From positions 1 through 21,210 of the IMG/VR virus record IMGVR_UViG_3300042565_001158: a stretch of DNA of 21,210 bases. The stretch is one strand, 5' to 3'. Both the position numbers and the translations under genes were made by a program. The notes beneath the pieces were generated by a model. The model searched no databases and was not told the DNA's origin. It worked only from the letters and a program-made list of their open reading frames with translations. Origin of the DNA: a virus. Of the stretch, positions 5,501 through 18,001 are shown in pieces; the first letter of the stretch is position 1, and each line of letters starts with the position of its first letter.

Positions 5501-6519
5501 AGCATTGGCCTTGTCCATTCGCCGACATAGTATGCGCTATATTCATTTCCTATCTTTAATCCAATAGAAGGCCCATCTACATAAATTCCATCTTGCGATC
5601 CAAGTGGACCGATAATTCTTTTTCTGTCGTTACTATAAGAATTTATTCTTAGCCATGTTTCAAAAGTATACTGCTTAAATTTTCCAGACTCATTTAAAAA
5701 TCCAACACCAGGAACTATTAAAGATGGGTTGTCTCCATTTGGATACATTGTTGTAAGACCAGATGTTCCATAAACAATTGGGATACCTGAATTTTTAGCC
5801 TTGAGCATGTTATCAGAAACTAGATAGTATGCGTCTAGTTCTTGCAATCCATAACATTTTGAAACTACTGCCTTTTGAGGTGCAATAGATATGCTAGAAG
5901 GAATATTTACTGGTTCAACTCCAAGAGATGTCGATGCAAACTCTTCTGACCACTGTCCAAGACTTATTCCATTTACCAGAAAAACATCTTCTGTTTCTGA
6001 CCCACCAATAAAGTTTATCTTGAATACAAGCCTTAACTTTGAATCGTCTGGTGGTGTATCAAATGTTTCTGATATAAAAATCCAGTTGCTATTTATAACT
6101 GTGTCGTAATTTTTTAAGTGTCTGACTTCTTGCCCACTTGTAGTGTCTGTATACTGATAGCCAATCTCGAAACCAGCAACGTATGCACTTTCAGAATAAA
6201 AGTATCCGCCTACAGAAAATGTCCTGAGATATTCATTAAGGTCTTTTAGGTCCATAATGTCATTGCTTACTGCAATTATGGAAGCAGACTCAGCCTGTGT
6301 TGGAGTTGCAGTTATTTTACCTACATAACTATTGATAAAAGGCTCATCTACCGACTGGGTATAGTTCTCGTATGTACCGCCAACAATTGTCCAATTAGAA
6401 AGATTTCTTTTAGATTCTGTAAGCAAAGAGATATAGTCTGCTTTGTCATCCAATGCCCAAAGGCCAGTCGGATGCTCAGCAAAGACTTTTTCGGCATATA
6501 GATTTGATGGGCTAGACAT
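2515..6519 (-). CDS. Large virion protein with LamG/concanavalin-A-like domains
   Basis: A 1334-aa protein, the largest gene here, with no signal peptide or membrane segment. Three jelly-roll (LamG-like) regions can be picked out. One is about 275-400 ('FKQYTFETWLRINSYS' then 'GKDTASLVINGQEVISL'). One is about 525-760, closing with 'DLRMYIGGDKNGTSTFTGRI'. One is about 1119-1236 ('GIGFYLNGKVVKEPILTLQEW'). The N-terminal 35-190 looks like a carbohydrate-binding jelly roll. LamG domains bind glycans or proteins, so a tail or capsid-surface adhesin is the likely role. Its place between the reductase and the portal is unusual for a fibre. The ATG at 6519 has no Shine-Dalgarno sequence but follows an extended -10 element by 9 nt. 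No enzyme active site was seen. Domain edges are approximate. Confidence 0.8.
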   Translation of the reverse strand: MSSPSNLYAEKVFAEHPTGLWALDDKADYISLLTESKRNLSNWTIVGGTYENYTQSVDEPFINSYVGKITATPTQAESASIIAVSNDIMDLKDLNEYLRTFSVGGYFYSESAYVAGFEIGYQYTDTTSGQEVRHLKNYDTVINSNWIFISETFDTPPDDSKLRLVFKINFIGGSETEDVFLVNGISLGQWSEEFASTSLGVEPVNIPSSISIAPQKAVVSKCYGLQELDAYYLVSDNMLKAKNSGIPIVYGTSGLTTMYPNGDNPSLIVPGVGFLNESGKFKQYTFETWLRINSYSNDRKRIIGPLGSQDGIYVDGPSIGLKIGNEYSAYYVGEWTRPMLLHVRVGKDTASLVINGQEVISLNYRTEDLALPSMLDENGKDQDWIGFYAYDDIYPIEIDCVGIYPYIVATAVAKRRFVFGQGVDIPENINTSYSGTSVFIDYSFADYTSNYSYPKIGSWTQGFSDNVSVANRSLSVLSHPLPEIVLSSSTEEELFLDCKTAQSSDTIDFFSFRPNTSWNSVSGYLFFKNFDFMKSPVSAFYGCFKLPQSSTSAQTLIRIEKENTNTYFSIELKQYKVDYKYGINNIKINEAKAFMNTATGIVNTMYTTNMPHQLSEDSKVLVTQFEKTEFNKSDNHVNIFKIISSNSFSIETPWITLVQNQDGTFKEKYSYGLGINGVGILDFYTTLYSPLTAEPGEIVDVGINIPAFVSRFGNPVSDFFGSLSDLRMYIGGDKNGTSTFTGRIYNIGLCTAYNFQKIRSLFNEIGVPIWNEDLFAVYQNNQLINIDGGLDTTSIQNPIGTYTVNGAISGGGVVVLEEDSLLDHVASYTILPETIFDTYKLTVSANAYWEDQLPLTYFAESVIDKRGDQYFDLDFIQFNIDYPIPSKTIAIETTPQPWTYAELASEYGVPVQRTYTSLDNYLFTGYNDYEDLKNRVSKDYRYDTDGAVVKTYVTFQYTELGANQTSFYFTKTERPSRNGVLIPGHDWMTTKYEVVDNMIIYPPSGVDFNDLSIVTHIEMNVKNSQTNNVAIKKLTYSSQALNESDASPIGTRFGTSIYPYTKTGIYYNFKKNNPFSIYTGSSPYLYLTKTSGIQLKGKYDPLVNRGLVVPVNESRSEGFKVIAMQMAVRFDGDYFPYAPTQIFEVQSKDSYIKFYMVACDPSGRRAKIYAIDAMTGLIQNGIGFYLNGKVVKEPILTLQEWSFLGINFSSSLNFSFFEGAVRLTGPLLFNSISYYQSTNLQEVQNVSERPWFRVKVLGSYGLDWEFWNTGSFNWNKVLVLSETSYYGVNPSDIYKSYTGTNKIIVDDDRPVRFSEYAYTVFTDVNWNQFVQDPV

Positions 6520-6528
6520 TATAAGTCT

Positions 6529-6537
6529 ATTTTACCA
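6529..6537 (-). promoter_or_regulatory. Extended -10 promoter for the LamG protein gene
   Basis: The minus strand reads TGG-TAAAAT in the 23-bp gap after the reductase. Nine nt separate it from the ATG at 6519, so the mRNA would have a leader of only two or three bases. The gene has no ribosome binding site, which fits. The sequence matches the extended -10 elements elsewhere in the window. Confidence 0.45.
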
Positions 6538-6542
6538 CACGG

Positions 6543-8573
6543 CTACTTGATTTTTATCTCACAATAGTCTGTTGTGCAGTACATCTCTCCTTGAGCCTCA
6601 AGATTTTCTGCTCCATCATAAATAGCAGCAAAATCAATGTGCTTTAACTTACCAACATATGACTCATATTCTTCTTCAGTGATCTGAGTATATGGCTGCT
6701 GAGGATAAACAGTATTTCCCATTGGAAGGAATGATACTGCCTTTAGTTGTCCCTCGTACATATGAAGTGCTGGAACAACATGCTTTGACTCTGTTTCCTT
6801 GTCAAATGAAAGTGTTACAGAAACACCATTATCAGACCAGTACTTCTGAGCAGTTGCAGCAAGAGCAATCTTTTCAAATAGTGTTACATCCTTTTCAGAT
6901 CTTGGGTGACCTGACTTGATTGGGAAGTAAACTACTGATGTATTTGCTGACACTACGTCATCTTCAATTGTGTACCCTGCTGCTTTGAACAAATGCATCA
7001 TTGGATCTGTGTTTCCAAATCGAACTGCACGAAGGAAGAAGTTTCCTCCAGGTCCCCAGTGAACTCCAGGAGTTGCACCAGAAAGAATTGAAACCGATCC
7101 TGATGGCTTAACTGTTGTTACACGAATTGATTCACGAACACAGAGCCATTCTGAATACTGATGGTCATAGTGACGGATCTTGTTGTATCCTTCATCCATC
7201 CACTCACGAACAATTGGCAAACCCTTTTGATCTGCAAACGATGCAATACCTGTAAGAGATGTACCAATGCGACGGTTGCGTTGCATGATACCGTTTGTTT
7301 GTGGCCAATGCGTTGGAACAAGTGTTACAGTCTTTCCATATAGGTATGCAAACTTCAGGGTACGCAGGAAGTCCTCCTTAGACTCATGACGATTCAAGTG
7401 CACTTCTACAAGTGTACATAGTTCGTATGATTCTAATGGCTGCTCCGCACATGGGTTAAATCCCATCACACGATAATCCTTACCGTCTGGCGCATCCTTT
7501 AGTCGTCCATAATTACGAGCAACATCAAGCCAGATAAAACCTGGTTCTCCGTTTTCTGTAATTAAATCTACATAGTCTTCGTACTTTGTTCCTACTTCTG
7601 CTGAAATAGAATTGTTAGACATCCAAGCCCAACCTGGATTTTCTGGATCAAATGAGTTGCGTTCTGGGAACATCTCTGAGTTCTTTAGATTCATGAATGT
7701 GTCGTCTCCTGCAGTACCCAAAGCAAGTGTTGCGGATCTGCGGACATTGCCTGATACAACACAGGTACCAATAAGGTTTACAAGGTCCACGATGGCACGA
7801 GAGTCTAGTGTTTCTCCGCCTCTGGAGCCGATTACACGGTCTATCTGGTCATGCAACTTGATAAGAGGTGCAGGTCCTGATGCAACGCCTCCAAAGCCCT
7901 TGATAGGTGCTCCAAGAGGTCTGATCAAATCATAGTTAAACTTCTGAATACTCTGGTTTGGTCTTAGGTAAGAGTTGATAAGTAGTCGCACTGACTCTAC
8001 CCAGCCTTCACGAGTGTCTGGAATTTCGAACACCTGTTCTGGTTCTGTTGGGGTATAGATTGAGAAATTCTTATCCTGTCCCACTGTATCAAACCCTACA
8101 CCAATGCCAAGCATAAGGGCATCCATAACCCAAGCAAATAATGCTCCTGGATCATTCTTGTCAAGATCCTTTGTTGAAACCATTGCACAGTTTTGTAGTG
8201 CTGCTGAGTTCTTCTTCTCCATAGTCATAGGAGTTCCGAATGCCCACATACCTCGTCCTGGTGGAGTCCACTTCAATTCAAACATTCTCTGGAATGCTTC
8301 TTGTGCTGACTTCTGAGCCTTGTAATCATTCCATGGCAAACGGTTCTCTTTAGCATGGTTCTTCTGTACTGAATACATACCCTCGATTACACGACGACAT
8401 ACTTCATGCCATCTTTCCTTAGTTCCATCTTCTTTCATGCGAGAATACGTACGAATAAAAGTAATCTCTCCAAGTGAATTTTCTGCTGCATCCTTAAACC
8501 CAAATGGGCTTTCTTGGCTCTTGTACTTTTCTACGAAGTCCTCTGGAAGTTTAAAACTAAAAAAATCTGACAT
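6543..8573 (-). CDS. Adenosylcobalamin-dependent ribonucleoside-triphosphate reductase (class II)
   Basis: A 676-aa protein close to the monomeric Lactobacillus leichmannii-type reductase (739 aa). That enzyme makes dNTPs from NTPs using a B12-generated thiyl radical. Catalytic residues are all present. Cys129 is in 'LQNCAMVST'. 'NPCAEQ' has Cys375 (thiyl) and Glu377. Cys386 lies 11 residues after Cys375, as in the reference enzyme. A C-terminal Cys666-x4-Cys671 pair would shuttle reducing power. 'PPGRGMWAFGT' (104-114) is also typical. The protein looks intact and is probably active if the host supplies cobalamin. It has its own promoter and an AAAGGA ribosome binding site. It sits between the oxygenase block and structural genes, away from any replication module in view. 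Confidence 0.95.
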   Translation of the reverse strand: MSDFFSFKLPEDFVEKYKSQESPFGFKDAAENSLGEITFIRTYSRMKEDGTKERWHEVCRRVIEGMYSVQKNHAKENRLPWNDYKAQKSAQEAFQRMFELKWTPPGRGMWAFGTPMTMEKKNSAALQNCAMVSTKDLDKNDPGALFAWVMDALMLGIGVGFDTVGQDKNFSIYTPTEPEQVFEIPDTREGWVESVRLLINSYLRPNQSIQKFNYDLIRPLGAPIKGFGGVASGPAPLIKLHDQIDRVIGSRGGETLDSRAIVDLVNLIGTCVVSGNVRRSATLALGTAGDDTFMNLKNSEMFPERNSFDPENPGWAWMSNNSISAEVGTKYEDYVDLITENGEPGFIWLDVARNYGRLKDAPDGKDYRVMGFNPCAEQPLESYELCTLVEVHLNRHESKEDFLRTLKFAYLYGKTVTLVPTHWPQTNGIMQRNRRIGTSLTGIASFADQKGLPIVREWMDEGYNKIRHYDHQYSEWLCVRESIRVTTVKPSGSVSILSGATPGVHWGPGGNFFLRAVRFGNTDPMMHLFKAAGYTIEDDVVSANTSVVYFPIKSGHPRSEKDVTLFEKIALAATAQKYWSDNGVSVTLSFDKETESKHVVPALHMYEGQLKAVSFLPMGNTVYPQQPYTQITEEEYESYVGKLKHIDFAAIYDGAENLEAQGEMYCTTDYCEIKIK

Positions 8574-8690: not shown

Positions 8691-9320
8691 TTAATGAATC
8701 CAGTGTTGCGGAACCATAATCTTTTCACCGCTTTTAACCAAGTGTGCGGTGTGATGATATGGTGGTGATGGTGGAAATACAATAATACTTCCTGCCTTTG
8801 GCTTTACTGCAAAAGTATAATTTTTATTTTGTTCTGCTTTTGCAAAGTCTGGGTCTGGACTAGAGTTTTGTAAAACACCGTCTGGTGATGCAATGGTAAA
8901 AGATATTTCCCCACCTTCATAGTCATCATTAAGGTACATTACAAAAGAAACCTTTAGTCTCTCGTCTCCTTCTTGCTGATCAAAGTGTGCACCCATGTAT
9001 GTTCCTGGCTGATACTTCTTGATAGGATACTGTGGAAACAGTTTCGGTTCATCTGTTATTCCTTGAGCCTTTGCATAATCTCTTGCTACATCATCAAATG
9101 CTTTTTGTAAAGTATTGTAGATGTACTTATCGTTTTCATTTGCATCTGCTGCTAAAGCAATAGTCTTATCTGTTCCGTAGACATAGTGCTGACCACTACA
9201 TGCCATCCATTCGCCCCATGGGTCCTTGTTATCATTTTCAATTGCGTCTACAAGTTTCTTTGGGTCTTCAATTACGTCTGTGTAATAATAAACCTTTTCT
9301 TCAAGTATTTCTTTGTTCAT
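8691..9320 (-). CDS. 2-oxoglutarate/Fe(II) oxygenase, prolyl 4-hydroxylase-like (oxygenase A, Lys type)
   Basis: A 209-aa protein of the P4H/2OG-FeII_Oxy_3 type, which hydroxylates a substrate while turning 2-oxoglutarate into succinate and CO2. The double-stranded beta-helix core supplies the iron triad His112-x-Asp114 ('GAHFDQQ') and His190. 'MYLNDDYEGGEISF' (128-141) is the usual core strand. The residue expected to hold the 2-oxoglutarate carboxylate, 10 after the distal His, is Lys200 rather than Arg. A 20-30 residue loop ('QNSSPDPDFAKAEQ') interrupts the core and is absent from the other five. The last gene of the oxygenase block, it starts 12 bp after oxygenase B with an AAAGGAG ribosome binding site. 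The substrate is unknown. Confidence 0.85.
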   Translation of the reverse strand: MNKEILEEKVYYYTDVIEDPKKLVDAIENDNKDPWGEWMACSGQHYVYGTDKTIALAADANENDKYIYNTLQKAFDDVARDYAKAQGITDEPKLFPQYPIKKYQPGTYMGAHFDQQEGDERLKVSFVMYLNDDYEGGEISFTIASPDGVLQNSSPDPDFAKAEQNKNYTFAVKPKAGSIIVFPPSPPYHHTAHLVKSGEKIMVPQHWIH

Positions 9321-9332
9321 TTTGTATCTCCT

Positions 9333-9998
9333 TTAGTATTTATTATTCTCATACCAGCCTCTGACCTTGATAAAGCCAACAGTCACATATCTGATTGGGC
9401 TGTCTTTGCCTACAGGTCTTACTCCGTGTTCGTATTCTTCAGTCCCTGGAAAAATAAGCAATGTCTTTGGGTTTGGTCTTAAATCAGATCCTGGCTTATT
9501 TTCAAAGAACAAAGTTCCTTCTTTATAATCGTCATTGATGTATAGGATAGCAGCATATCTTATGGATGGATCAGTATGCTGGTCTGTGTGAGACTTCAAT
9601 TCAACACCATGCTGCATTCTTTGTAAAGTTCCAAACCCAGCAAGTTCTAAAGATGGATCAGATAGTTGAATTAGATCTCCAAGTCTTCTCTGCAAAGTAA
9701 CAGTAATTGGCTCATGAACAATGTTAAGATTTTTATCTTGCCAACCCTGAGTGATCTCAAACTTTCCTTCAGCAACAAGATTGTCTACATCATCTCTGCC
9801 AAATTTTTCCATACAGAATCTTGCTAGGTTCTTCGTATACTCAATGCCCCAGTCTTCTTCTGTAGCATTATTAATGATTCCCCAAATTGTTTCTAATTCT
9901 TCGTCCGATATAAAGTTTTTAATGGCCAGGATGTCTCCGTGCAAAACCTCTATATCATAATTGGCATCTGTAAACTCTTTTTCTAGAAAAATTCCCAT
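9333..9998 (-). CDS. 2-oxoglutarate/Fe(II) oxygenase, prolyl 4-hydroxylase-like (oxygenase B, Arg type)
   Basis: A 221-aa protein. The iron triad is His137-x-Asp139 ('SHTDQHTDPS') and His191 ('YEHGVRPV'), and Arg203 ('PIRYVTVGF') is the 2-oxoglutarate anchor, 12 after the distal His. The 'ILYINDDYKEGTLFF' strand is typical. I chose ATG 9998, which follows a GGAGA site with about 10 nt spacing. The open frame extends to a TTG at 10013, but that codon overlaps the ribosome binding site. The start lies 2 bp after the stop of oxygenase C. The middle (about 60-105) differs from the other oxygenases here, so it is not a recent duplicate of its neighbours. Confidence 0.83.
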   Translation of the reverse strand: MGIFLEKEFTDANYDIEVLHGDILAIKNFISDEELETIWGIINNATEEDWGIEYTKNLARFCMEKFGRDDVDNLVAEGKFEITQGWQDKNLNIVHEPITVTLQRRLGDLIQLSDPSLELAGFGTLQRMQHGVELKSHTDQHTDPSIRYAAILYINDDYKEGTLFFENKPGSDLRPNPKTLLIFPGTEEYEHGVRPVGKDSPIRYVTVGFIKVRGWYENNKY

Positions 9999-9999
9999 G

Positions 10000-10746
10000 C
10001 TAGTTATCTCCAACCTTATACTTATTGTTATTCATGTCTATCTTGTATCCTTCTTTGAGCAACTCTTGCCATTGCGCTCTTTCAATTTCCTGCTTGGCTC
10101 TAGTCTCTCGCATTTCTTCTGCCCAAGCATCTCTTAACTCTTGTGGATAGTCAGACTCTTCTCTATCGTCCCAAAAAGATCCAATAGTGTATCTTACTCC
10201 ACTTTCTATTAGTGATACTTCGTGCATATTGTTAAATCCCCCGTCAAATACGGCAAGCATGCCAACCTGTGGCTTAATTTCGATATTTTGATCTGGAAAC
10301 CTCAATAGTCCACCCTCAAAGTTATCGTTTAAGTATAAAAACCCTGCATATCTGCTTCTAGTAAATGCTCCAGCGTTTCCTTCATGATCCGTGTTGTCAG
10401 AATGAATTCTTGCATAGGCTCCTGGCTCCCACTTTTGTGTGTGGTACCCAATCTTAGATATAATCTTTGGATCAAGATCGTGAACTGATGCTATTGCCTC
10501 TGGCATCATTTTTTCAATGTCTGAAAAGATTGTTGGTACAAGGCCAGCATCTAATACTTCTTGATCATTGTCTTGTGGAAGGACGGATGAATATGACTCA
10601 TAAAAAGATATTGGCATCCACGATATTTTTCCATTTGCTGCCTGTGCATCTAAAGCATTAATCATCTTAGCGCACTCTTCACTGCTAACAAAATTTTCAT
10701 AAACAACAATGTCTTTTGTAATTCTTTTTTTATTGTTTAAGTTCAT
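10000..10746 (-). CDS. 2-oxoglutarate/Fe(II) oxygenase, prolyl 4-hydroxylase-like (oxygenase C, Arg type)
   Basis: A 248-aa protein. Iron ligands are His115-x-Asp117 ('ARIHSDNTDHEG') and His175 ('NMHEVSLIESG'), with Arg185 as 2-oxoglutarate anchor. 'GFLYLNDNFEGGLLRFP' is the core strand. A charged, helical C-terminal extension of about 50 residues ('EELRDAWAEEMRETRAKQ'-like) follows the fold. Its role is unknown, possibly substrate or subunit contact. I chose ATG 10746, which overlaps the previous stop as ATGA and has AGGAGA about 10 nt upstream. A longer frame to 10794 would overlap oxygenase D by 50 bp for no gain. Confidence 0.85.
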   Translation of the reverse strand: MNLNNKKRITKDIVVYENFVSSEECAKMINALDAQAANGKISWMPISFYESYSSVLPQDNDQEVLDAGLVPTIFSDIEKMMPEAIASVHDLDPKIISKIGYHTQKWEPGAYARIHSDNTDHEGNAGAFTRSRYAGFLYLNDNFEGGLLRFPDQNIEIKPQVGMLAVFDGGFNNMHEVSLIESGVRYTIGSFWDDREESDYPQELRDAWAEEMRETRAKQEIERAQWQELLKEGYKIDMNNNKYKVGDN

Positions 10747-11417
10747 GGCTTTCTGTCTCCTGTGTGCTCTGTAATCTCCCAGAAGAATGGACATGTATAT
10801 CTAATACCACTTTTAATTTCTGTTACTCCGTGAATATAATTCATATCCCCTGGGAAAAAGTAAGCAGCACCCTTTTTTGGCTTAAACTTAACACCTTGTT
10901 TTGGAAAGTATAACTCTCCACCTTCGTAATCCTCATTTAAATAAAAAAGGCTCGATAGGTCATAGTTTGGAAAATCATTTGGAAGACCTGCATCAGGTCC
11001 TTCGTGCAGTTCTTTGTCTGCATGAGGGTTTTGAAATTGTCCTGGAAGCCACCTAACAATAGTTGTTCCAGTGGGCGTAACTTTTACTTTATAAAACTCT
11101 TCAACAATTGGCTTTAGTCTTTGGAATAATCCTGCAATTACTGGTGCAATAGTTGGGTCATTTTTATCTAAAGATGGGCTGGTGCAAACTCTGTCTTTCC
11201 AGTAGTCTGAATCATAAACAATAGTTCCATTTTCATTTACATGTGTTTCTGTTACATCCCAGATAGTTAAAGACTTTGCAGCCTTTTCTAAAAAAACTAT
11301 CTCTTCTTCTGTCATAAAGTTTTCTAACTCTACGATCATGTCTTTGCTATCTCCGAACCAGCCCGAAGGTGTCATTGATGGCTTTCTAACGACAACAGAA
11401 GAGTTTGTTATTTCCAT
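10743..11417 (-). CDS. 2-oxoglutarate/Fe(II) oxygenase, prolyl 4-hydroxylase-like (oxygenase D, Arg type)
   Basis: A 224-aa protein. The iron triad is His132-x-Asp134 ('NPHADKELHEG') and His196 ('YIHGVTEIKSG'), with Arg206 as the 2-oxoglutarate anchor. 'LFYLNEDYEGGELYFP' (158-172) is the closest to the P4H consensus of the six. It heads a run of four oxygenases (D-C-B-A) with overlaps or gaps of 12 bp or less. A TGA-TATAAT promoter sits exactly 6 nt before its ATG and there is no ribosome binding site, so a leaderless mRNA is likely. A perfect palindrome lies just upstream. Family assignment is firm. Substrate (virion protein, host protein or small molecule) cannot be told. Confidence 0.87.
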   Translation of the reverse strand: MEITNSSVVVRKPSMTPSGWFGDSKDMIVELENFMTEEEIVFLEKAAKSLTIWDVTETHVNENGTIVYDSDYWKDRVCTSPSLDKNDPTIAPVIAGLFQRLKPIVEEFYKVKVTPTGTTIVRWLPGQFQNPHADKELHEGPDAGLPNDFPNYDLSSLFYLNEDYEGGELYFPKQGVKFKPKKGAAYFFPGDMNYIHGVTEIKSGIRYTCPFFWEITEHTGDRKP

Positions 11418-11423
11418 ATCTTG

Positions 11424-11432
11424 ATTATATCA
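11424..11432 (-). promoter_or_regulatory. Extended -10 promoter, leaderless, for oxygenases D-C-B-A
   Basis: The minus strand reads TGA-TATAAT, then six bases, then the ATG at 11417, so the predicted start point is the A of the start codon. A TTGTAG hexamer 16 bp upstream is a poor but possible -35. The sequence ATGATATAATCA is identical to that before the gene at 20631. Confidence 0.6.
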
Positions 11433-11448
11433 TAGAGTTTAAACTCTA
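11433..11448. promoter_or_regulatory. Perfect 16-bp palindrome at a promoter (candidate operator)
   Basis: TAGAGTTTAAACTCTA is a perfect palindrome. It fills the spacer directly upstream of the TGATATAAT element and overlaps the stop codon of the 151-aa gene. Its AGAGTTT/AAACTCT halves match the outer half-sites of the reductase-promoter inverted repeat. Confidence 0.55.
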
Positions 11449-11901
11449 CAATTCCCTTTCTATTTCTAATTGCTTTAAGAATCTTTCTGGATCAAATCTC
11501 CAATTATCTTTTGCAAATGATTTGACAATCTTAATACAGACATCTTCATAGTCATTTTTATCTAACTTGTCCTTAAGAGGGTGAAGCGCCTCAATAGTAT
11601 CAATATAGTTCTGTCTAACAAAAGATGGGTCTCCAGCGTGGTTTCTTTTTAAAACCTTTGTCAGAGTATTTCCAGATGGCTGATAGAGAGACACAGTTAA
11701 ATAGTTTTTTGCAAATCCTGCATCTTGATACATTTCATACCCTTCTAGTGCCTGCTCAACATTATCAAAAGAGATTATTGATCTTACTGGAGACTCTCCA
11801 TCTCTAGATACAGTTATCATGTAGTGACCGACTTTGCCCTCTTTGGCATTTTTAACATAATCGTTAACCATATCATCATGCGTCATATTTAATTCGCTCA
11901 T
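11446..11901 (-). CDS. Hypothetical protein in the oxygenase block
   Basis: A 151-aa acidic protein I do not recognise. The N-terminal half (about 25-80) reads as alternating strands and helices ('GHYMITVSRDGESPVRSI', 'EQALEGYEMYQDAGF', 'YLTVSLYQPSGN') and could be a small alpha/beta domain. The C-terminal half (95-151) is highly charged and helical, ending 'FDPERFLKQLEIEREL'. No catalytic motif or membrane segment is seen. The ATG overlaps the preceding stop as ATGA, so it is translationally coupled to the DUF6065-like gene. It is the last gene before the promoter of oxygenases D-A. It may be an accessory subunit of the block, but only position supports that. Confidence 0.75.
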   Translation of the reverse strand: MSELNMTHDDMVNDYVKNAKEGKVGHYMITVSRDGESPVRSIISFDNVEQALEGYEMYQDAGFAKNYLTVSLYQPSGNTLTKVLKRNHAGDPSFVRQNYIDTIEALHPLKDKLDKNDYEDVCIKIVKSFAKDNWRFDPERFLKQLEIEREL

Positions 11902-12611
11902 CGTTTGCCAGTATTATCGTTTACATAAAGTTTTAAAGTTTTTGTTTCATGAGTTCCCAAAGTTTCACCTTTTTCGTTTACGGCATCTCTATACCAGTCT
12001 GTCCATTTTCCAGAAGAGTTCAAGACTTGTGCTGCCTCACCATAAGATATGTTGGCATTAGTTCTTGCTCTGTCTTCATCCTTATAATCAAGTATCTCTA
12101 TGGCGCTATTGTTTAAGTTAGTCAAGGATATTGGAATTATGGTTGCTAAAGGAGTTCCAGACTTTATTGTTATTTTCTTATTTGCCGTTCTTGCCTTAAT
12201 TGCTAAAGGAAGCGGATTGTCATAAAAAGAAGTACTAATTAAATTAGACATGGTTTCAAAGTCTTCACTAAAATAATTTACTGGGTTTATTGTAAGAATG
12301 CTGACATCAGAATCTGTTCTAAAAACTAGACCAGTACTGAGGCTAATTGAAGATTGTCCTCTTCCAGAGTATGCTCCCTGTGGTGCAGAAATAATTTCAA
12401 TATGATCAGATGTTTGATCATTTACTCCATCCCAAATAAAAACAATATCTTCTTCACAATAAAGGCTCCAGCCAACGACGTTTGCCTGTGTTACTGGAAA
12501 ACATCTGTATGCATGGTTTTCTGATGTAGCATCCATCCAGTCTCTTTTGATAGACATTGGAGCAATAGAAAAAGGATTTCCTTGCATCTTTTCAACTGAA
12601 ATATTAAACAT
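11898..12611 (-). CDS. DUF6065-like protein (second of two)
   Basis: A 237-aa protein of unknown function that I recognise, without certainty, as DUF6065-like. Typical stretches are 'RDWMDATSENHAYRCFPVTQ' (23-42) with the following 'ANVVGW', 'STGLVFRT' (92-99) and 'IKSGTPLATIIPI' (149-161). It is predicted all-beta for the most part, with a 60-residue polar C-terminal part. No catalytic residues are evident. It shares its fold pattern with the 13305-14072 protein (STGLVFRT versus STGYVFRT, SGTPLATIIP versus AGTPYLQVLP). Its start shares a base with the stop of oxygenase E (TAATG), so the pair is translationally coupled. Each copy follows one of two paralogous oxygenases, which suggests it serves the oxygenase or shares its substrate. 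Confidence 0.75.
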   Translation of the reverse strand: MFNISVEKMQGNPFSIAPMSIKRDWMDATSENHAYRCFPVTQANVVGWSLYCEEDIVFIWDGVNDQTSDHIEIISAPQGAYSGRGQSSISLSTGLVFRTDSDVSILTINPVNYFSEDFETMSNLISTSFYDNPLPLAIKARTANKKITIKSGTPLATIIPISLTNLNNSAIEILDYKDEDRARTNANISYGEAAQVLNSSGKWTDWYRDAVNEKGETLGTHETKTLKLYVNDNTGKR

Positions 12612-13294
12612 TACTCGTTATCCCACTTGGGATCATACATGTCTGGTGTATGATATTTCTTGCTGTAGTCTAGCATCGTAACAATAGAATACTTAGTTCC
12701 TGAATGAACTGGCATTGCCTGATGAGGATACATAAAGTTTGATGGGAAGATATAAAGATCTCCAGCCTCTGGCTTTATGTTTAAATTTTGTAATCTAAAA
12801 TATAGTTCTCCACCCTCATAGTCATCATTAACATATGCAACAAGAGATACAGTACAGTTATAAGAGTATCCATGGTCGTGGTGTTCTTTAAAATGTTGGC
12901 CTGGGCCATACTTAATAAAATTAAATGCTTCCCAATACTTAAGAGGCATGATGTTGTGCTGTTTTCTATAGTCTTCAACTGCTTCATTTTGTGCATCATA
13001 TATGTCTTGCCATAGGGACTGCAACTTTAAAGAATCTTCCCCTTTGTCCAACTCTATATCTGTTTTCTTAAACTTAAAGTCTACACAGTCTCTGTACTCT
13101 GGCATTAGTTGTTGGTATCCTACATATGCTGGCATCCAGTGATATCTTTTACCTTCTGGAGATAACTTTCCATACTCAGCAACTGATCCAAGTGTGTTCT
13201 CAAGCCTATTTATAACATCAAACTCTTTTTTAATAACACCCTTGTAGCAAAATATTCCATTGCCAAGGTCTTGCTTATCTGTCCATGTTTGCAT
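12611..13294 (-). CDS. 2-oxoglutarate/Fe(II) oxygenase, prolyl 4-hydroxylase-like (oxygenase E, Lys type)
   Basis: A 227-aa protein. Iron ligands are His138-x-Asp140 ('KEHHDHGYSYN') and His191 ('YPHQAMPVHSG'), with Lys201 ('GTKYSIV') in place of the usual Arg. Lys at this place is also used by animal collagen prolyl 4-hydroxylase. It is a clear paralogue of oxygenase F: both have 'EAFNF.KY', 'YNCTVS', 'NDDYEGGE'/'NEDYEGGE' and 'GTKY', plus a shared N-terminal 'RD.VDF.FK' region. I chose ATG 13294, which has AAGGA 7 nt upstream and begins 10 bp after the previous stop. The open frame runs to 13354, but that ATG has no ribosome binding site and would overlap the preceding gene by 50 bp. Confidence 0.85.
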   Translation of the reverse strand: MQTWTDKQDLGNGIFCYKGVIKKEFDVINRLENTLGSVAEYGKLSPEGKRYHWMPAYVGYQQLMPEYRDCVDFKFKKTDIELDKGEDSLKLQSLWQDIYDAQNEAVEDYRKQHNIMPLKYWEAFNFIKYGPGQHFKEHHDHGYSYNCTVSLVAYVNDDYEGGELYFRLQNLNIKPEAGDLYIFPSNFMYPHQAMPVHSGTKYSIVTMLDYSKKYHTPDMYDPKWDNE

Positions 13295-13304
13295 CTTATA
13301 GTCC

Positions 13305-14072
13305 TTATCTATATTCTCGTCTTGACCAAACTTTGTTTTTATATACCCCGCCATCTGGCTGACGATAAAACTTTGCGTTATCTACCATTTTACCATACAT
13401 AACAGATTGATCTAAAATGTCTATTTCGTGTTCCCAGTTTTCTCTTTTAAAAGGAAGAACCTGTAGGTATGGGGTTCCTGCTGGGATAGTTCCTTCCCAT
13501 CCATCTGCAATAAAAAATGGAAAACTTCCAAGAAGATGCACCTTGTCACTGTCAACAATTCCAGTAGTGTTCATGAATGGAAGATCAAATCTATTCATTG
13601 GTGTCATAAACAAGGCACTGTAGCCTTCTGGCAACTCTAGACCCCAGTCAGAACTCCAAGCAAAATGATGTGTATAAAATCCTTTTGGATGTTCAAACTG
13701 TGGCATGGGAGGCCTCTGAGTACAAAAATCTTTGTACCTAGGGTCATCAATTTTTACATTAATTATTCCTTGAGAATTTTTGGTGAATGTTAAATCGCAC
13801 GGAGTTCTAAAAACATAACCAGTTGAAAATGCATCCATAATTGCTGGACACGCTTTCCATGTAGGAATTTTTCCATAGTCATCTGAGGTTCCTTCTTTTG
13901 GAAAAGGACAAACCTCTTTTGTTGCTTTGTAATATTCACCATTTGGCATTTTTGCAAATCTATCTGCATCTTTATACCATTCTGGAATTTCTTTTTGTGT
14001 TGGAACTGGAACAGAAACACTTTCCTTGTTTAGCCATGGTCTAAATGATCTAAATATTGCAACTAGGGACAC
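13305..14072 (-). CDS. DUF6065-related protein (first of two)
   Basis: A 255-aa protein of unknown function. The core runs from 'KEIPEWYKDADRF' (27-39) through 'CPAIMDAFSTGYVFRTPCDL' (75-94), 'HHFAWSSDWGLELPEGYSAL' (135-154) and 'IPAGTPYLQVLPFKRENWEH' (196-215). The layout is that of a beta-rich, cupin-like or jelly-roll fold, but no complete metal site is evident. It is a distant relative of the 11898-12611 protein. The start is GTG 14072, overlapping the preceding stop as TAGTG, with AGGG 8 nt upstream. No ATG occurs before residue 41. It is coupled to oxygenase F just as its relative is coupled to oxygenase E. Confidence 0.78.
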   Translation of the reverse strand: MSLVAIFRSFRPWLNKESVSVPVPTQKEIPEWYKDADRFAKMPNGEYYKATKEVCPFPKEGTSDDYGKIPTWKACPAIMDAFSTGYVFRTPCDLTFTKNSQGIINVKIDDPRYKDFCTQRPPMPQFEHPKGFYTHHFAWSSDWGLELPEGYSALFMTPMNRFDLPFMNTTGIVDSDKVHLLGSFPFFIADGWEGTIPAGTPYLQVLPFKRENWEHEIDILDQSVMYGKMVDNAKFYRQPDGGVYKNKVWSRREYR

Positions 14073-14782
14073 TACTTATGCCCTAGTTCATTAATATCTG
14101 TCATTACTACAACACAATACTTTGTTCCCTCTTTCATTGGTAATGATGCATGCTCATAAATATAGTTAGATGGACAAAGGACAATATCTCCTATTTTTGG
14201 AGTATGAGTGTATCCATCCATTCTTGGGAACCTGATCTCTCCGCCTTCATAATCTTCATTTATATAAATAACAGCAGAAACTGTACAGTTATACATCGGA
14301 CCATGGTCTGCATGAATATTGAAGTGTGTTCCTTCACCCTCGTACTTAACAAAATTAAATGCCTCATAATATACTACGTTGATTCCCCAGTATCTTGCAT
14401 AATCGTCAACGCAAAACTTTAATTTTTGATAAATCTCTTCATGAAGGTCAAGAAGTTCTGCATTGTGCTCGTCTCTTGGTCCTAGGTTTTCTTGCTTAAA
14501 TCTAAAGTCTACAGCATCTCTAGCCTTTTTAATTGGAACATCTGAGTTAGTTACCTTTGCTTCTGACCACTTATACTTTCCATTACCGCCCAAATTAGAC
14601 TCTAGAATCTTTATGTATCTTTCTGAATCTTCTTTTGAAAATACATTTCTGTATAGGTTAATTCCAAGTGCTGGATTTTCAACTAAAATATTATTACCAA
14701 TGGTTTTTTCTGGATATCTGTTTGTTGCTGTTTCAGATCTATCTTTTGTAAACCATATATTTTCATTTTCGTCATACATCAT
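14072..14782 (-). CDS. 2-oxoglutarate/Fe(II) oxygenase, prolyl 4-hydroxylase-like (oxygenase F, Lys type)
   Basis: A 236-aa protein. The iron triad is His157-x-Asp159 ('NIHADHGPMYN') and His211 ('YEHASLPMKEG'), and Lys221 ('GTKYCVVVM') replaces the usual 2-oxoglutarate-binding Arg. 'VIYINEDYEGGEIRFP' (171-186) is the family core strand. The N-terminal 70 residues are shared in outline with oxygenase E. It is the first oxygenase of the block, starting 42 bp after the 143-aa gene. ATG 14782 has AAAGG 9 nt upstream, and a second ATG follows immediately. The gap holds no clear promoter, so it probably depends on the one at 15280-15288. Confidence 0.87.
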   Translation of the reverse strand: MMYDENENIWFTKDRSETATNRYPEKTIGNNILVENPALGINLYRNVFSKEDSERYIKILESNLGGNGKYKWSEAKVTNSDVPIKKARDAVDFRFKQENLGPRDEHNAELLDLHEEIYQKLKFCVDDYARYWGINVVYYEAFNFVKYEGEGTHFNIHADHGPMYNCTVSAVIYINEDYEGGEIRFPRMDGYTHTPKIGDIVLCPSNYIYEHASLPMKEGTKYCVVVMTDINELGHK

Positions 14783-14824
14783 AGTTACAAGCCTTTCGCT
14801 ATTGTTAAATACTAAAGTTTAAAA

Positions 14825-15256
14825 TTATATAAACCTTGAGCCGTCCCAGCCATGGGTTTCCCCTGCTGCTACAGCCTGGTCTTCTGGAACCTTGACCAAA
14901 ATAACCTCGCCAGTAAACTTTTCAGACAGAAAATCTGAAAGAACTGATGTATTACTAATGGCAAAATTTGCTATTAAAACGTTCTCAGAAAGGAAAGAAA
15001 ACTTCTTGTGATCATCCCAAATATCTACTGGTTCTGATCCTTCAGGAAGTTCTACTCCTCCTGAAAAAGATTCTCCATTCCAGACAGACTTAAACTTTGC
15101 ATTATTTTTAAATGAAGTTGTTTCCATTCCAATAGGAGATGTTGGTTTCGCTAAAGCGTTCTCCACTAAAAGATTTTTTTCAGCATCCGCATATGGAAGC
15201 ATTGTATGAATAACATCCCAAGATGTTTCATTTCTTTTTGATAAAACTGCGTACAT
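14825..15256 (-). CDS. Hypothetical protein, first gene after the fibre block
   Basis: A 143-aa protein I cannot name. It opens 'MYAVLSKRNETSWDVIHTML' and has a long central region with 'NNAKFKSVWNGESFSGGVEL' (50-69). It ends 'AAGETHGWDGSRFI', which resembles the short 'G..YDGS.F' C-terminal tags on phage fibre and fibre-assembly proteins. That ending makes a virion-associated or chaperone role possible, but it is a weak cue. It has a strong AAGGAG ribosome binding site 6 nt before the ATG and its own promoter just after the hairpin that closes the fibre block. It is the leader gene of the oxygenase transcript. Confidence 0.78.
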   Translation of the reverse strand: MYAVLSKRNETSWDVIHTMLPYADAEKNLLVENALAKPTSPIGMETTSFKNNAKFKSVWNGESFSGGVELPEGSEPVDIWDDHKKFSFLSENVLIANFAISNTSVLSDFLSEKFTGEVILVKVPEDQAVAAGETHGWDGSRFI

Positions 15257-15279
15257 AGTATCTCCTTTTTGTAACTATT

Positions 15280-15288
15280 AGTATATCA
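15280..15288 (-). promoter_or_regulatory. Extended -10 promoter opening the oxygenase block
   Basis: The minus strand reads TGA-TATACT, 23 bp before the ATG at 15256, leaving a leader that carries AAGGAG. No good -35 is present, as expected for an extended -10 promoter. It lies directly downstream of the hairpin at 15300-15325, so a transcript could end and a new one begin here. Confidence 0.55.
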
Positions 15289-15299
15289 TACACCTGATT

Positions 15300-15325
15300 G
15301 GGTGTGTATTGTTTTATACACACCC
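15300..15325 (-). terminator. Hairpin after the FN3/Pro-Phe repeat gene (possible terminator)
   Basis: A perfect 10-bp stem (GGGTGTGTAT paired with ATACACACCC) encloses a 6-nt loop, starting 8 bp after the stop codon at 15333. It is the strongest hairpin in the window. There is no T run after it on the minus strand, so classical intrinsic termination is doubtful. It may act as a Rho-type or partial terminator, or protect the mRNA 3' end. Confidence 0.5.
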
Positions 15326-15332
15326 ATCAAGT

Positions 15333-16274
15333 TTAGCAAGCACATGGGTAACATGGGCAGGCCCAGCAATAACTTGCACTACATCCTCCACCCACTCCGA
15401 CACCTACACCTACACCTACGCCTACGCCTACACCTACTGATGGTGGTTGGAAGTAAGGGAAGTATGGTGGGAAGAATGGGAAGAATGGGAAGTAAGGGAA
15501 GAATGGTGGGAAGAATGGGAAGAATGGGAAGAATGGGAAGAACGGTGGGAAGAATGGGAAGAATGGGAAGAATGGGAAGAACGGTGGGAAGAATGGGAAG
15601 AATGGGAAGTAAGGGAAGAATGGTGGGAAGAATGGGAAGAATGGGAAGAATGGAAAGAATGGGAAAAATGGCGGGAAGAATGGAGGAGTAGTAACACTAT
15701 TAGATGATGCAGATGTTACAGAAGTTCCATTAGCATTAACTGCCCGTACGGTATATGACTGTGCAGTATCTGCTTCTTGTGGAACAACTACAGATAATGA
15801 TGATGTTGTTCCAGACTTTCCATCAGAAGATGCCCAAACATATGAAGTAATTGCTGAGCCACCATTATTTGGTGCAGTCCAAGAAACAGTATCGTTACCA
15901 ACTGCAGTTGTTGCAGTCGGTGCGCTTGGTGTTGCTGGAACAGTTGTTACTGTAATTGATGCTGATGCACTAGATGCTGCTGATGTTCCAGAAGCATTTG
16001 TTGCAGTAACAGTGAATGTTGGTGTTGCAGAAGAAGCAATACCAGTTACAACAATAGGAGAAGATGCTCCAGTTGCTGATTGTCCAGTGCTTGCTGTAAC
16101 TGTATAAGATGTTGCTGGAGGGGAACCCGCTGGCAATTCAAATGCTACAGAGCCTGCACCATTTCCAAATGCTCTACCTGTTCCTACGTTTGTAGCAACA
16201 ACATTAATTGGTGGCTTTGGCTCCAAGAAGTCATTTGCTGCTTGGGACTTTTTACCTACTCTTTTATTTGCCAT
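15333..16274 (-). CDS. FN3-domain virion protein with Pro-Phe repeat and cysteine-rich tail
   Basis: A 313-aa protein in four parts. A short basic start is followed by two fibronectin type III domains (about 21-110 and 113-196). Next come a 79-residue run made only of Pro, Phe and Tyr (197-275), built from PFF triplets broken by PPFF about every ten residues, and eight Val-Gly repeats (280-295). The last part is a tail with six cysteines in 16 residues (298-313). I count about 31 Pro and 44 Phe in the run. FN3 domains are common on phage virion surfaces. The Cys tail could be disulfide-linked or bind metal. The start has AAGGGG about 9 nt upstream. The repeat leaves several frames open, but only this one has a domain-bearing N-terminus. 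Neighbouring fibre genes support a virion role. Confidence 0.8.
   Translation of the reverse strand: MANKRVGKKSQAANDFLEPKPPINVVATNVGTGRAFGNGAGSVAFELPAGSPPATSYTVTASTGQSATGASSPIVVTGIASSATPTFTVTATNASGTSAASSASASITVTTVPATPSAPTATTAVGNDTVSWTAPNNGGSAITSYVWASSDGKSGTTSSLSVVVPQEADTAQSYTVRAVNANGTSVTSASSNSVTTPPFFPPFFPFFPFFPFFPFFPPFFPYFPFFPFFPPFFPFFPFFPFFPPFFPFFPFFPFFPPFFPYFPFFPFFPPYFPYFQPPSVGVGVGVGVGVGVGVGGGCSASYCWACPCYPCAC
15390..15437 (-). repeat. Val-Gly hexanucleotide repeat (8 units)
   Basis: Eight GTN-GGN codon pairs in a row encode (Val-Gly)8, with mixed third bases (GTA GGT, GTA GGC, GTC GGA, GTG GGT). The synonymous variation suggests the dipeptide repeat is kept by selection on the protein and is not only recent slippage. 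Confidence 0.8.
15450..15686 (-). repeat. 9-bp minisatellite encoding (PFF)n/PPFF
   Basis: About 237 bp built from the plus-strand unit GGGAAGAAT, broken at intervals by an added codon (GGT/GGC) that gives PPFF, and by a TAA-like variant that gives Tyr. Array blocks recur nearly identically, so larger units were also duplicated. All frames lacking stops here are a by-product of the repeat. The nearly uniform codons point to recent expansion by slippage or unequal exchange. Confidence 0.85.
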
Positions 16275-16303: not shown

Positions 16304-18001
16304 TTACTTAAGATCTCCGAAGACAACCCATGCATTTGCTGCTCTCTTTAGAAGAGTTGCAGATGACCATTGTCCACGTAGTGTTAATCCTGGTGTTGCG
16401 TTAACTGCTGTAGTTCCAGGTGTTGCTGCTGCGATTGAAACTGCCCCTGTACCTGTCTGAAGAATATCAATAGATGTTCCGATTGGAAAGTTTAGAGTTG
16501 CATCTGTTGGAATTGTAACTACTGCTGCTTGAGAAAATTCAATCATTGAATCTCTGTCTGTAAGTGCTCCAAGAGTATATCCTGCTGACTTTTGAGTAAT
16601 TGTTGTAAGTGAAGGAACTCCAGCCTTTGTCTGTGTTCCGTCTGTAAATGCTACACCTGCTGCCGCAACTGTAACTGTTCCAGTAAATGTTGGATTTGCA
16701 AGTGGTGCCTTTAGACCAAGGTTTGTTGTAACTGTTGATGCAAAGTTTGCGTCATCACCAAGGGCTGCTGCAAGTTCATCAAGTGTGTTGAGTGCTGCTG
16801 GTGCAGATGCAATTACTGCATTTACTTGTGCTGTTGCATCTGCAATTGCTTCTGACTTAGCAGTTGCAATTGCTGAAGCCTGTGCTGTTGATACTGGCTT
16901 ATTTGCATCTGAAGTATTGTCAACATTTCCAAGACCTACTGAAGACTTTGTGAGTGCTGCTACTGCAGTTGAAATCTTTGTGTCTGCGTTGTTTCCTGCT
17001 GTTACAACTGCTGCATCTGCTTTAGTTGTTGCATCTGCTGCTGCTGTTGCAACGGCATCTGTCTCTGCTTGATCAGCATATGTCTTAGTTGCAATTGTTC
17101 CATCGATATCAAATCTTTGGTCAGACTGATTCCAGTCAATACCAGTTCCTGCAAGTGATGACTGATCTACTGTTGCTCCTTCTAGAGCAGTTGCAAGATC
17201 TGCAGTTGTTACAAGAAGAGATGTGTCTGCAATTCCGTGTACGCTTGTTGTTAATCCTGCGTGTGTTCCAAGATCTCCAGAAACTACAGAAACTGCTCCT
17301 GCAAGATCTGAGTCAGTAACTAGTACTGATGTATCTGGTATTCCGTGTACGTTTGTTGTAAGACCATTGTGAATACTAATGCTATCTGTCAAAGCGTCTG
17401 CAAGAATTGAGTCTGTCACAAGAAGAGATGTGTCTGCAATTCCATGAACATTCTGTGATATGTTTGCGTGGTCACTTAGGTTTGTTAAAGATGCCTTTAG
17501 TGCAAGACTATTTGTAATTGTTGATGCAAAGTTTGCATCGTCACCTAGTGCTGCTGCTAGTTCATCCAATGTGTCAAGTAACCCTGGTGCGCCTGCTACC
17601 AAGTTGTTTACCTTTGTCTGAACAAATTCTGTTGTTGCAATCTGTGTTGTGTTTGTTGTTGAGGCTGCTGTTGGTGCTGTTGGTACACCAGTAAGTGCTG
17701 GTGAGGCTAGAGGAGCCTTTGTTGCAAGATTATTTGTTATAGTTGTAAAGAACTCTGGGTCATCGCCAATTGCTGCTGCTAACTCGTTTAGAGTATTTAG
17801 TGCTCCTGGTGCGCCATCAAGTATGGCTGCTAGTTCTGCTGCATTAGCAAAATACTGTAGGTTACCCCATGTAGAGGAACCGTTACCCATCTTAAACTTA
17901 CTTGTATCAGTTTCAAAACCGATTTCACCTGCTGCTAGAATTGGGTTTGCAGCCGTCCATTGTGCTGCAGTACCTCTGCGCTGTTGCATTCTTGTTGCCA
18001 T
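16304..18001 (-). CDS. Phage tail fibre protein
   Basis: A 565-aa protein. The N-terminus 'RRGTAAQWTAANPILAAGE' (8-26), then 'IGFETDTSKFKMGNGSSTW', is the common phage module thought to anchor fibres to the virion. It is followed by 'L.TL.ELAAA.GDD..F...I...L..KA' repeats (three copies), three 'VHGI.DTS.LVT' repeats, and an Ala/Thr-rich probable coiled coil around 300-380. The final 90 residues look like a beta-rich tip ('SIDILQTGTGAVSIAAATPG'). The likely role is a trimeric receptor-binding or side fibre. It has AAGGAG before ATG 18001, and a 54-bp gap separates it from the 149-aa fibre gene. No lyase or hydrolase site is seen. Confidence 0.85.
   Translation of the reverse strand: MATRMQQRRGTAAQWTAANPILAAGEIGFETDTSKFKMGNGSSTWGNLQYFANAAELAAILDGAPGALNTLNELAAAIGDDPEFFTTITNNLATKAPLASPALTGVPTAPTAASTTNTTQIATTEFVQTKVNNLVAGAPGLLDTLDELAAALGDDANFASTITNSLALKASLTNLSDHANISQNVHGIADTSLLVTDSILADALTDSISIHNGLTTNVHGIPDTSVLVTDSDLAGAVSVVSGDLGTHAGLTTSVHGIADTSLLVTTADLATALEGATVDQSSLAGTGIDWNQSDQRFDIDGTIATKTYADQAETDAVATAAADATTKADAAVVTAGNNADTKISTAVAALTKSSVGLGNVDNTSDANKPVSTAQASAIATAKSEAIADATAQVNAVIASAPAALNTLDELAAALGDDANFASTVTTNLGLKAPLANPTFTGTVTVAAAGVAFTDGTQTKAGVPSLTTITQKSAGYTLGALTDRDSMIEFSQAAVVTIPTDATLNFPIGTSIDILQTGTGAVSIAAATPGTTAVNATPGLTLRGQWSSATLLKRAANAWVVFGDLK

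Follow-up and report, generated by a model that had tools for sequence, protein, structure and literature searches.

Among the genes of aquatic phages that lack an explanation, those for 2-oxoglutarate/Fe(II)-dependent (2OG) oxygenases are some of the most common, and the usual guess is that they serve host metabolism. T4-like cyanophages usually carry one to five of these enzymes, and Synechococcus phage S-SCSM1 carries 24 (PMC9602691, PMC3037559), for which its authors propose host reprogramming or a role in host metabolism (PMC9602691). Seven annotated 2OG oxygenases of S-SCSM1, a cultured phage, flank two tail-fibre genes (MK867354.2, positions 210680-219702). Here we describe six prolyl 4-hydroxylase (P4H)-type oxygenases, P1 to P6, that are encoded beside a fibre-like protein with a proline- and phenylalanine-rich stalk in IMG/VR virus record IMGVR_UViG_3300042565_001158, a linear fragment of 21,210 bases that is referred to below as the window. 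We establish which genes make up this cassette, how they are conserved among relatives and that the cassette switches jointly with the stalk at the fibre locus. Large oxygenase sets are already known in phages, so the view of a first-pass annotation that six would be many needs qualifying; what is added here is the coupling of such a cassette to a stalk built of PFF and PPFF repeats, written (P)PFF below.

Genes at the locus are transcribed from the minus strand in the order fibre-like genes, FN3 protein with the Pro/Phe run, a 143-residue gene (X2), P6, D1, P5, D2, X1, P4, P3, P2, P1 and a class II ribonucleotide reductase (RNR), which is followed by a LamG-like protein (1334 residues), a small gene, the portal and the prohead protease. 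D1 and D2 denote DUF6065-type proteins, while X1 and X2 are genes of no known family. The 1334-residue protein has no Pfam match, and its LamG-like label is taken from the first-pass annotation and from the gene order of Streptomyces phage Coruscant. The cassette is tightly packed, with overlaps of 1-52 bases at six of the nine joins between P6 and RNR (join lengths of -1, -50, -1, -4, 28, -52, -14, 12 and 117 bases). The oxygenases had been described as following directly after the repeat gene; they do lie in its neighbourhood, but X2 intervenes. Scans for promoters and terminators gave a signal no greater than that in shuffled sequence.

Coupling of stalk and cassette is evident in 72 dereplicated IMG/VR loci that have the FN3 protein and RNR of the window as their boundaries, 41 of which have a Pro/Phe stalk and 31 another kind of stalk. 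At least four oxygenases are present between fibre and RNR at 40 of the 41 Pro/Phe loci, while none of the 31 others has any oxygenase in this interval (Fisher p = 1.4e-19, a value that ignores kinship). The remaining Pro/Phe locus, L311, lies on a contig where, some 10 kb off, another Pro/Phe fibre is followed by a complete cassette. Identity of RNR is 85-99% in the 31 other-stalk loci and 82-100% over both stalk types, and in both groups the FN3 half is a homologue of the window's (36-78% identical). With homologous FN3 halves on one side and an RNR this similar on the other, the switch point lies inside the fibre gene. On the RNR tree both traits, stalk type and cassette, change state 19 times, with weak support.

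The same coupling is seen when loci are collected by the repeat with the oxygenases ignored. Querying IMG/VR with DNA encoding PFFPFFPFFP gave 80 loci, with the run in frame in 79, and oxygenases were present at 58 of the 80 (285 genes in 719 kb) as compared to none of 80 control viral loci drawn by random 14-mer (684 kb), so the association is not a product of chance. Among 18 apparent exceptions that were read as whole contigs, 10 carry 6-13 oxygenases elsewhere on the contig, with the remainder being short contigs, contigs truncated close to the repeat gene, or short runs. In cellular genomes the PFF patterns take the form of short runs, with an oxygenase at 1 of 80 loci and DUF6065 at 0 of 80. 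Relatives in which repeat and oxygenases never occur together had been named beforehand as the refuting case, and the survey decisively finds the two together. A substrate link that had rested on adjacency is now also backed by close relatives, in which the stalk and the cassette switch jointly; that the stalk is hydroxylated is what we infer from this link.

Three IMG/VR scans, made with RNR, P5 and the portal, gave 236 loci besides the window, and the cassette is syntenic among these relatives. The commonest count among multi-oxygenase loci is seven and the maximum is ten, with many relatives having an additional oxygenase of about 300 residues between P4 and P3 that the window lacks. Coordinates of the features and the recovery of each cassette gene are given in Table 1. 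A 60-kb contig (L303, genome G022) contains thirteen PF13640 genes and the PFF repeat at three places. At another locus (L256) most cassette genes are broken into short open reading frames, for which sequencing errors are a more probable cause than decay.

Table 1. Features of the fibre locus in the window, in order of transcription; catalytic residues are numbered within each protein, values after family names are E-values, and fractions give the number of cassettes, out of 40, in which the gene had a best match.
Feature	Position	Strand	Details
Tail-fibre-like protein, Mtd N-terminal domain; upstream module boundary	16304..18001	-	PF18454 1.3e-13
FN3 fibre-like protein	15333..16274	-	FN3 at about residues 1-196, 79-residue (P)PFF stalk 197-275, VG run, Cys-rich tip
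DNA of the 79-residue Pro/Phe/Tyr run	15450..15686	-	
X2, 143 residues, no known family, between fibre and cassette	14825..15256	-	optional among relatives
P6, prolyl-hydroxylase-type 2OG/Fe(II) oxygenase	14072..14782	-	H157, D159, H211, K221; PF13640 7e-10; 40/40
D1, DUF6065/phrog_7084 relative, GTG start	13305..14072	-	phrog_7084 8.5e-34; predicted beta-clip (dUTPase-like) fold; 40/40
P5, 2OG/Fe(II) oxygenase	12611..13354	-	H158, D160, H211, K221; PF13640 1.5e-15; 40/40
D2, DUF6065 protein	11898..12611	-	PF19541 1.1e-27; 40/40
X1, 151 residues, no known family	11446..11901	-	21/40
P4, 2OG/Fe(II) oxygenase	10743..11417	-	H132, D134, H196, R206; PF13640 2.1e-9; 40/40
P3, 2OG/Fe(II) oxygenase	10000..10794	-	H131, D133, H191, R201; PF13640 2e-8; 40/40
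P2, 2OG/Fe(II) oxygenase, TTG start	9333..10013	-	H142, D144, H196, R208; PF13640 1.7e-9; 36/40
P1, 2OG/Fe(II) oxygenase	8691..9320	-	H112, D114, H189, K200; PF13640 6.4e-11; 37/40
Class II (B12) RNR; module boundary on the downstream side, constant	6543..8573	-	PF17975 8.1e-32, PF21995 1.5e-14

All six oxygenases exceed the curated PF13640 cut-off of 27 bits (35.5-58.3 bits), and a separately run six-frame search of the record returned exactly these six and no others. Each contains an HxD motif, a distal His and then a Lys or Arg some ten residues further on. Family assignment and residue checks thus agree with the earlier description of six distinct P4H-type enzymes with an intact His-x-Asp...His triad in 6.1 kb. 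Pairwise identity among the six is 20-39%, and they are therefore not recent duplicates. Where orthologues align (47-96 sequences for each paralogue), the His, Asp, His and Lys/Arg positions are invariant in all six paralogues, and the median dN/dS of each paralogue, calculated for sampled pairs by the Nei-Gojobori method, is 0.07-0.14, indicative of strong purifying selection. Invariant catalytic residues together with low dN/dS argue that each paralogue is kept as a working enzyme, and from their sequences all six look catalytically competent.

P6, the one oxygenase that was modelled, gave a confident AlphaFold2 structure (pLDDT 91) that among solved structures is best matched by HIF PHD2, algal Cr-P4H-1, PBCV-1 vCPH and bacterial P4Hs (E-values of 3e-10 to 1e-7), and at the profile level P6 matches P4H, PKHD and lysyl hydroxylases. 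The predicted fold of P6 is nearest to those of peptidyl-prolyl hydroxylases, and the enzyme may likewise act on peptidyl proline. PHD2 and Cr-P4H-1, while closest in solved fold, are only 15-17% identical to P6 and are cellular enzymes with different substrates. The chlorella virus enzyme vCPH (PDB 5c5t) is a viral protein with the same fold and active-site plan, but is encoded by a single gene in a eukaryotic algal virus. S-SCSM1 resembles the window in having many diverged oxygenases, mostly of PF13640 and its relatives, seven of them around tail-fibre genes as noted above. It differs in being a marine T4-like cyanophage in which the protein most similar to P5 has 32% identity and the DNA match covers 1% of the cassette; DNA comparison of the cassette with the phage collection returned an 83-base stretch in S-SCSM1 and nothing more.

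A recount of the stalk agrees with the reported run of 79 residues that are Pro, Phe and Tyr alone (44 F, 31 P and 4 Y). The repeat protein is probably a virion component, as judged from its FN3 part, from the fibre genes around it and from the tip modules that its homologues carry. Of 2028 aromatic blocks in these homologues, 2010 are exactly two residues long, only six proline blocks depart from a length of one or two, and this near-uniformity of block length implies a strict pattern at the protein level. A collagen-like Gly-X-Y repeat was not found in the stalk, as (P)PFF contains no Gly. In the phage collection the FN3 part has no match; the (P)PFF repeat also has none, but a low-complexity filter makes that search uninformative. 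Behind the stalk, homologues have interchangeable ends that include Cys-rich tails as in the window, Hint-like domains (L011) and short tails. Hint- or intein-like ends were also recognized by eye in the L011 fibre (92-1390) and in L177, L233 and L056, with motifs such as VVHNAKAF or FLVHNK, sometimes located after the stalk.

Fibres with other stalks that were read contain (GAF)n in L032, FGFSPF in L039 and L046, and FTPVYTFVP in L026. These three kinds of stalk are also Phe-rich but are lower in Pro. Apparent "collagen-like" matches among such fibres are an artefact of a loose G-x-x pattern, the one that was read (L032) being (GAF)n. Since the Phe-rich fibres without PFF have no oxygenase before RNR, comparison of these sequences suggests that the enzymes go with a high density of proline and not with phenylalanine. 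Loci in which P6 is only 44-54% identical to that of the window have short or interrupted runs (0-18), as compared to 18-181 at the remaining loci; this may be a consequence of co-variation between enzyme and substrate or of shared ancestry.

The oxygenase block also contains X1 and the two DUF6065-type genes, D1 and D2, that the first-pass annotation does not name. D2 scores 97.5 bits against PF19541 (cut-off 26.6), while D1 has no Pfam match, with phrog_7084 matching D1 at 8.5e-34 and D2 at 1.5e-8. A confident model of D1 (pLDDT 93) matches dUTPases and dCTP deaminases in all 50 listed hits, yet with E-values of 1e-3 or weaker and low TM-scores, and no sequence match was found in the PDB. 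The model suggests a beta-clip fold for D1 without implying a dUTPase-type activity. DUF6065 relatives occur alone between fibre and RNR at many loci that have no cassette. In haloarchaeal viruses such as HF1 and HRTV-24 a DUF6065-type gene also lies between a class II RNR and fibre/adhesin genes, although these are archaeal viruses, their DUF6065 proteins are about 24-30% identical, and no oxygenase was found within the 14.5 kb examined. DUF6065 therefore accompanies fibres more widely than do the oxygenases and is a possible fibre-associated family of bacterial and archaeal viruses. DUF6065-type proteins that accompany fibre genes and a class II RNR were noted in L357 (6869-7753) and L358 (6869-7702).

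The closest named relatives of the window are Actinobacteria phages. Its portal is 45-48% identical to that of Streptomyces phages such as Coruscant, and its RNR is 62% identical to that of Actinomycetia phage DSL-LC01, a lake-derived, metagenome-assembled genome. As the nearest named relatives are actinobacterial phages, one of which is derived from a lake, the host is probably a freshwater actinobacterium. Coruscant (Stanwilliamsviridae), with a portal that is 48% identical, has a similar order of RNR, LamG protein, small gene, portal and protease but differs in having a LysM gene after RNR, and no oxygenase is annotated within the 33 kb of Coruscant that was seen. We found no account of this cassette in the literature, as searched in open-access papers.

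The best reading of these observations, and one that we consider moderately likely, is an exchangeable module of a stalk together with the enzymes that modify it. We infer the virion location, substrate, residue, timing and purpose of the modification as follows. The exchanged unit at the fibre locus of these phages, an uncultured freshwater group, would consist of the distal half of the FN3 fibre, namely the (P)PFF stalk and a variable tip, and a cassette in which the genes for two DUF6065 proteins are packed tightly with those for six to nine oxygenases of the prolyl-hydroxylase type. These oxygenases would most likely hydroxylate the stalk, probably at proline, during or soon after its synthesis; early modification is proposed because the oxygenase genes adjoin the stalk gene inside the structural block. 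Separate paralogues may serve separate repeat contexts such as PFF, PPFF, Tyr variants and the ends of the run. Hydroxylation could render a strongly hydrophobic Pro/Phe rod more soluble or stiffer, with the DUF6065 proteins assisting as fibre-associated accessories. More tentative, and in our estimate somewhat short of an even chance, is the full claim that at least six dedicated prolyl hydroxylases hydroxylate the (P)PFF stalk and that the unit is swapped whole among related phages so as to alter cell binding. The LamG protein, which had also been suggested as a substrate, is unlikely to be one, since it is equally present downstream of fibres that lack both stalk and cassette.

Several observations weigh against modification of the stalk by the cassette. 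Genomes without a Pro/Phe stalk hold one to six oxygenases elsewhere, so such enzymes must have further uses. As neighbours, the stalk and the enzymes may be moved together by a single recombination. The RNR tree is poorly resolved, with only 3 independent pairs on well-supported branches, which is too few for a significant sign test. In one distant relative (L255; portal 49%), on a 7.3-kb contig that breaks off within the repeat gene, a PFF run is seen with no oxygenase in view. To our knowledge PFF repeats are not among the known substrates of P4Hs. The PBCV-1 enzyme was reportedly tested on synthetic Pro-rich peptides by Eriksson et al. in 1999. According to a review, amino-acid analysis of purified PBCV-1 particles did not detect hydroxyproline (PMC7019647, reference 162), so that this precedent, weaker than had been claimed, holds for the type of enzyme and not for hydroxylation of the virion. 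Our claim covers this cassette rather than every oxygenase of these phages, some of which lie beside genes that, from a reading of their sequences, are carbamoyltransferase-like or encode other fibre-like proteins. Phages without the cassette often have a single 176-residue oxygenase directly after RNR (L084, 12031-12561; the same place in L207, L214 and L205). Away from the RNR locus, L627 (genome G007, 3949-6592) has two oxygenases directly after another large protein with a Hint-like end. In L255 the PFF run is followed directly by a large protein and the portal.

It is unlikely, though deserving of attention, that the cassette modifies some other virion or cell-surface target, such as other fibres, the tip, a glycan or a lipid, and travels with the stalk via a shared type of receptor. 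The variable tip does belong to the module along with the stalk, and the arrangement of oxygenases around the tail-fibre genes of S-SCSM1, behind another fibre-like gene in G007 and among sugar genes in cyanophage S-SSM7 would fit with such a role. However, tips differ widely (Cys-rich, Hint-like or short) while the core of the cassette is constant, leaving the stalk as the common feature. Furthermore, family 2 glycosyltransferases, which were sought as partners for glycosylation of hydroxyproline, are nearly absent (12 relatives).

That the oxygenases act on the metabolism or the proteins of the host, through drawdown of 2-oxoglutarate or hydroxylation of EF-Tu for instance, is distinctly improbable. 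Host-directed roles have been proposed for cyanophage 2OG oxygenases (PMC3037559, PMC9602691), the fold matches of P6 include bacterial P4Hs that were solved with EF-Tu, and related phages hold oxygenases at other loci. Nevertheless, the cassette lies inside a structural block, and its presence changes with that of the stalk against a constant background of RNR and portal genes; a metabolic role is disfavoured because it gives no reason for this switching. We assign a similarly low probability to hitchhiking, in which stalk and cassette are functionally unrelated neighbours in one exchanged block. They are indeed adjacent and exchanged jointly, and the RNR tree provides few well-supported independent events. 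Linkage of the two nevertheless outlasts reordering of the cassette genes, divergence of P6 to 44% identity and the sharing of FN3 halves across the swap, and the cassette is present in none of the 31 fibres with another stalk; persistence of the association through gene reordering and deep divergence favours a functional link. A joint role of the oxygenases, DUF6065 and RNR in making a modified nucleotide is very improbable, since the predicted dUTPase/dCTP deaminase-like fold of DUF6065, its position next to a class II RNR both in the window and in viruses of haloarchaea and a weak Tet_JBP match in P4 are set against a match that is far under the cut-off, a P6 that is nearest to peptide hydroxylases and cassette-free loci that keep an RNR of 85-99% identity.

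This locus ties one set of oxygenases to one physical partner through a natural experiment, in which nearly the same phage occurs either with both the stalk and the enzymes or with neither. The finding also marks DUF6065 as a candidate fibre-associated family that is common to bacterial and archaeal viruses. If the stalk is hydroxylated then, as far as we know, no phage protein before it has been shown to be modified in this way. A hydroxylated stalk would constitute a phage counterpart to the hydroxyproline chemistry of the extracellular matrix and would propose a function for clusters of oxygenases located near fibre genes elsewhere, including those in cyanophages.

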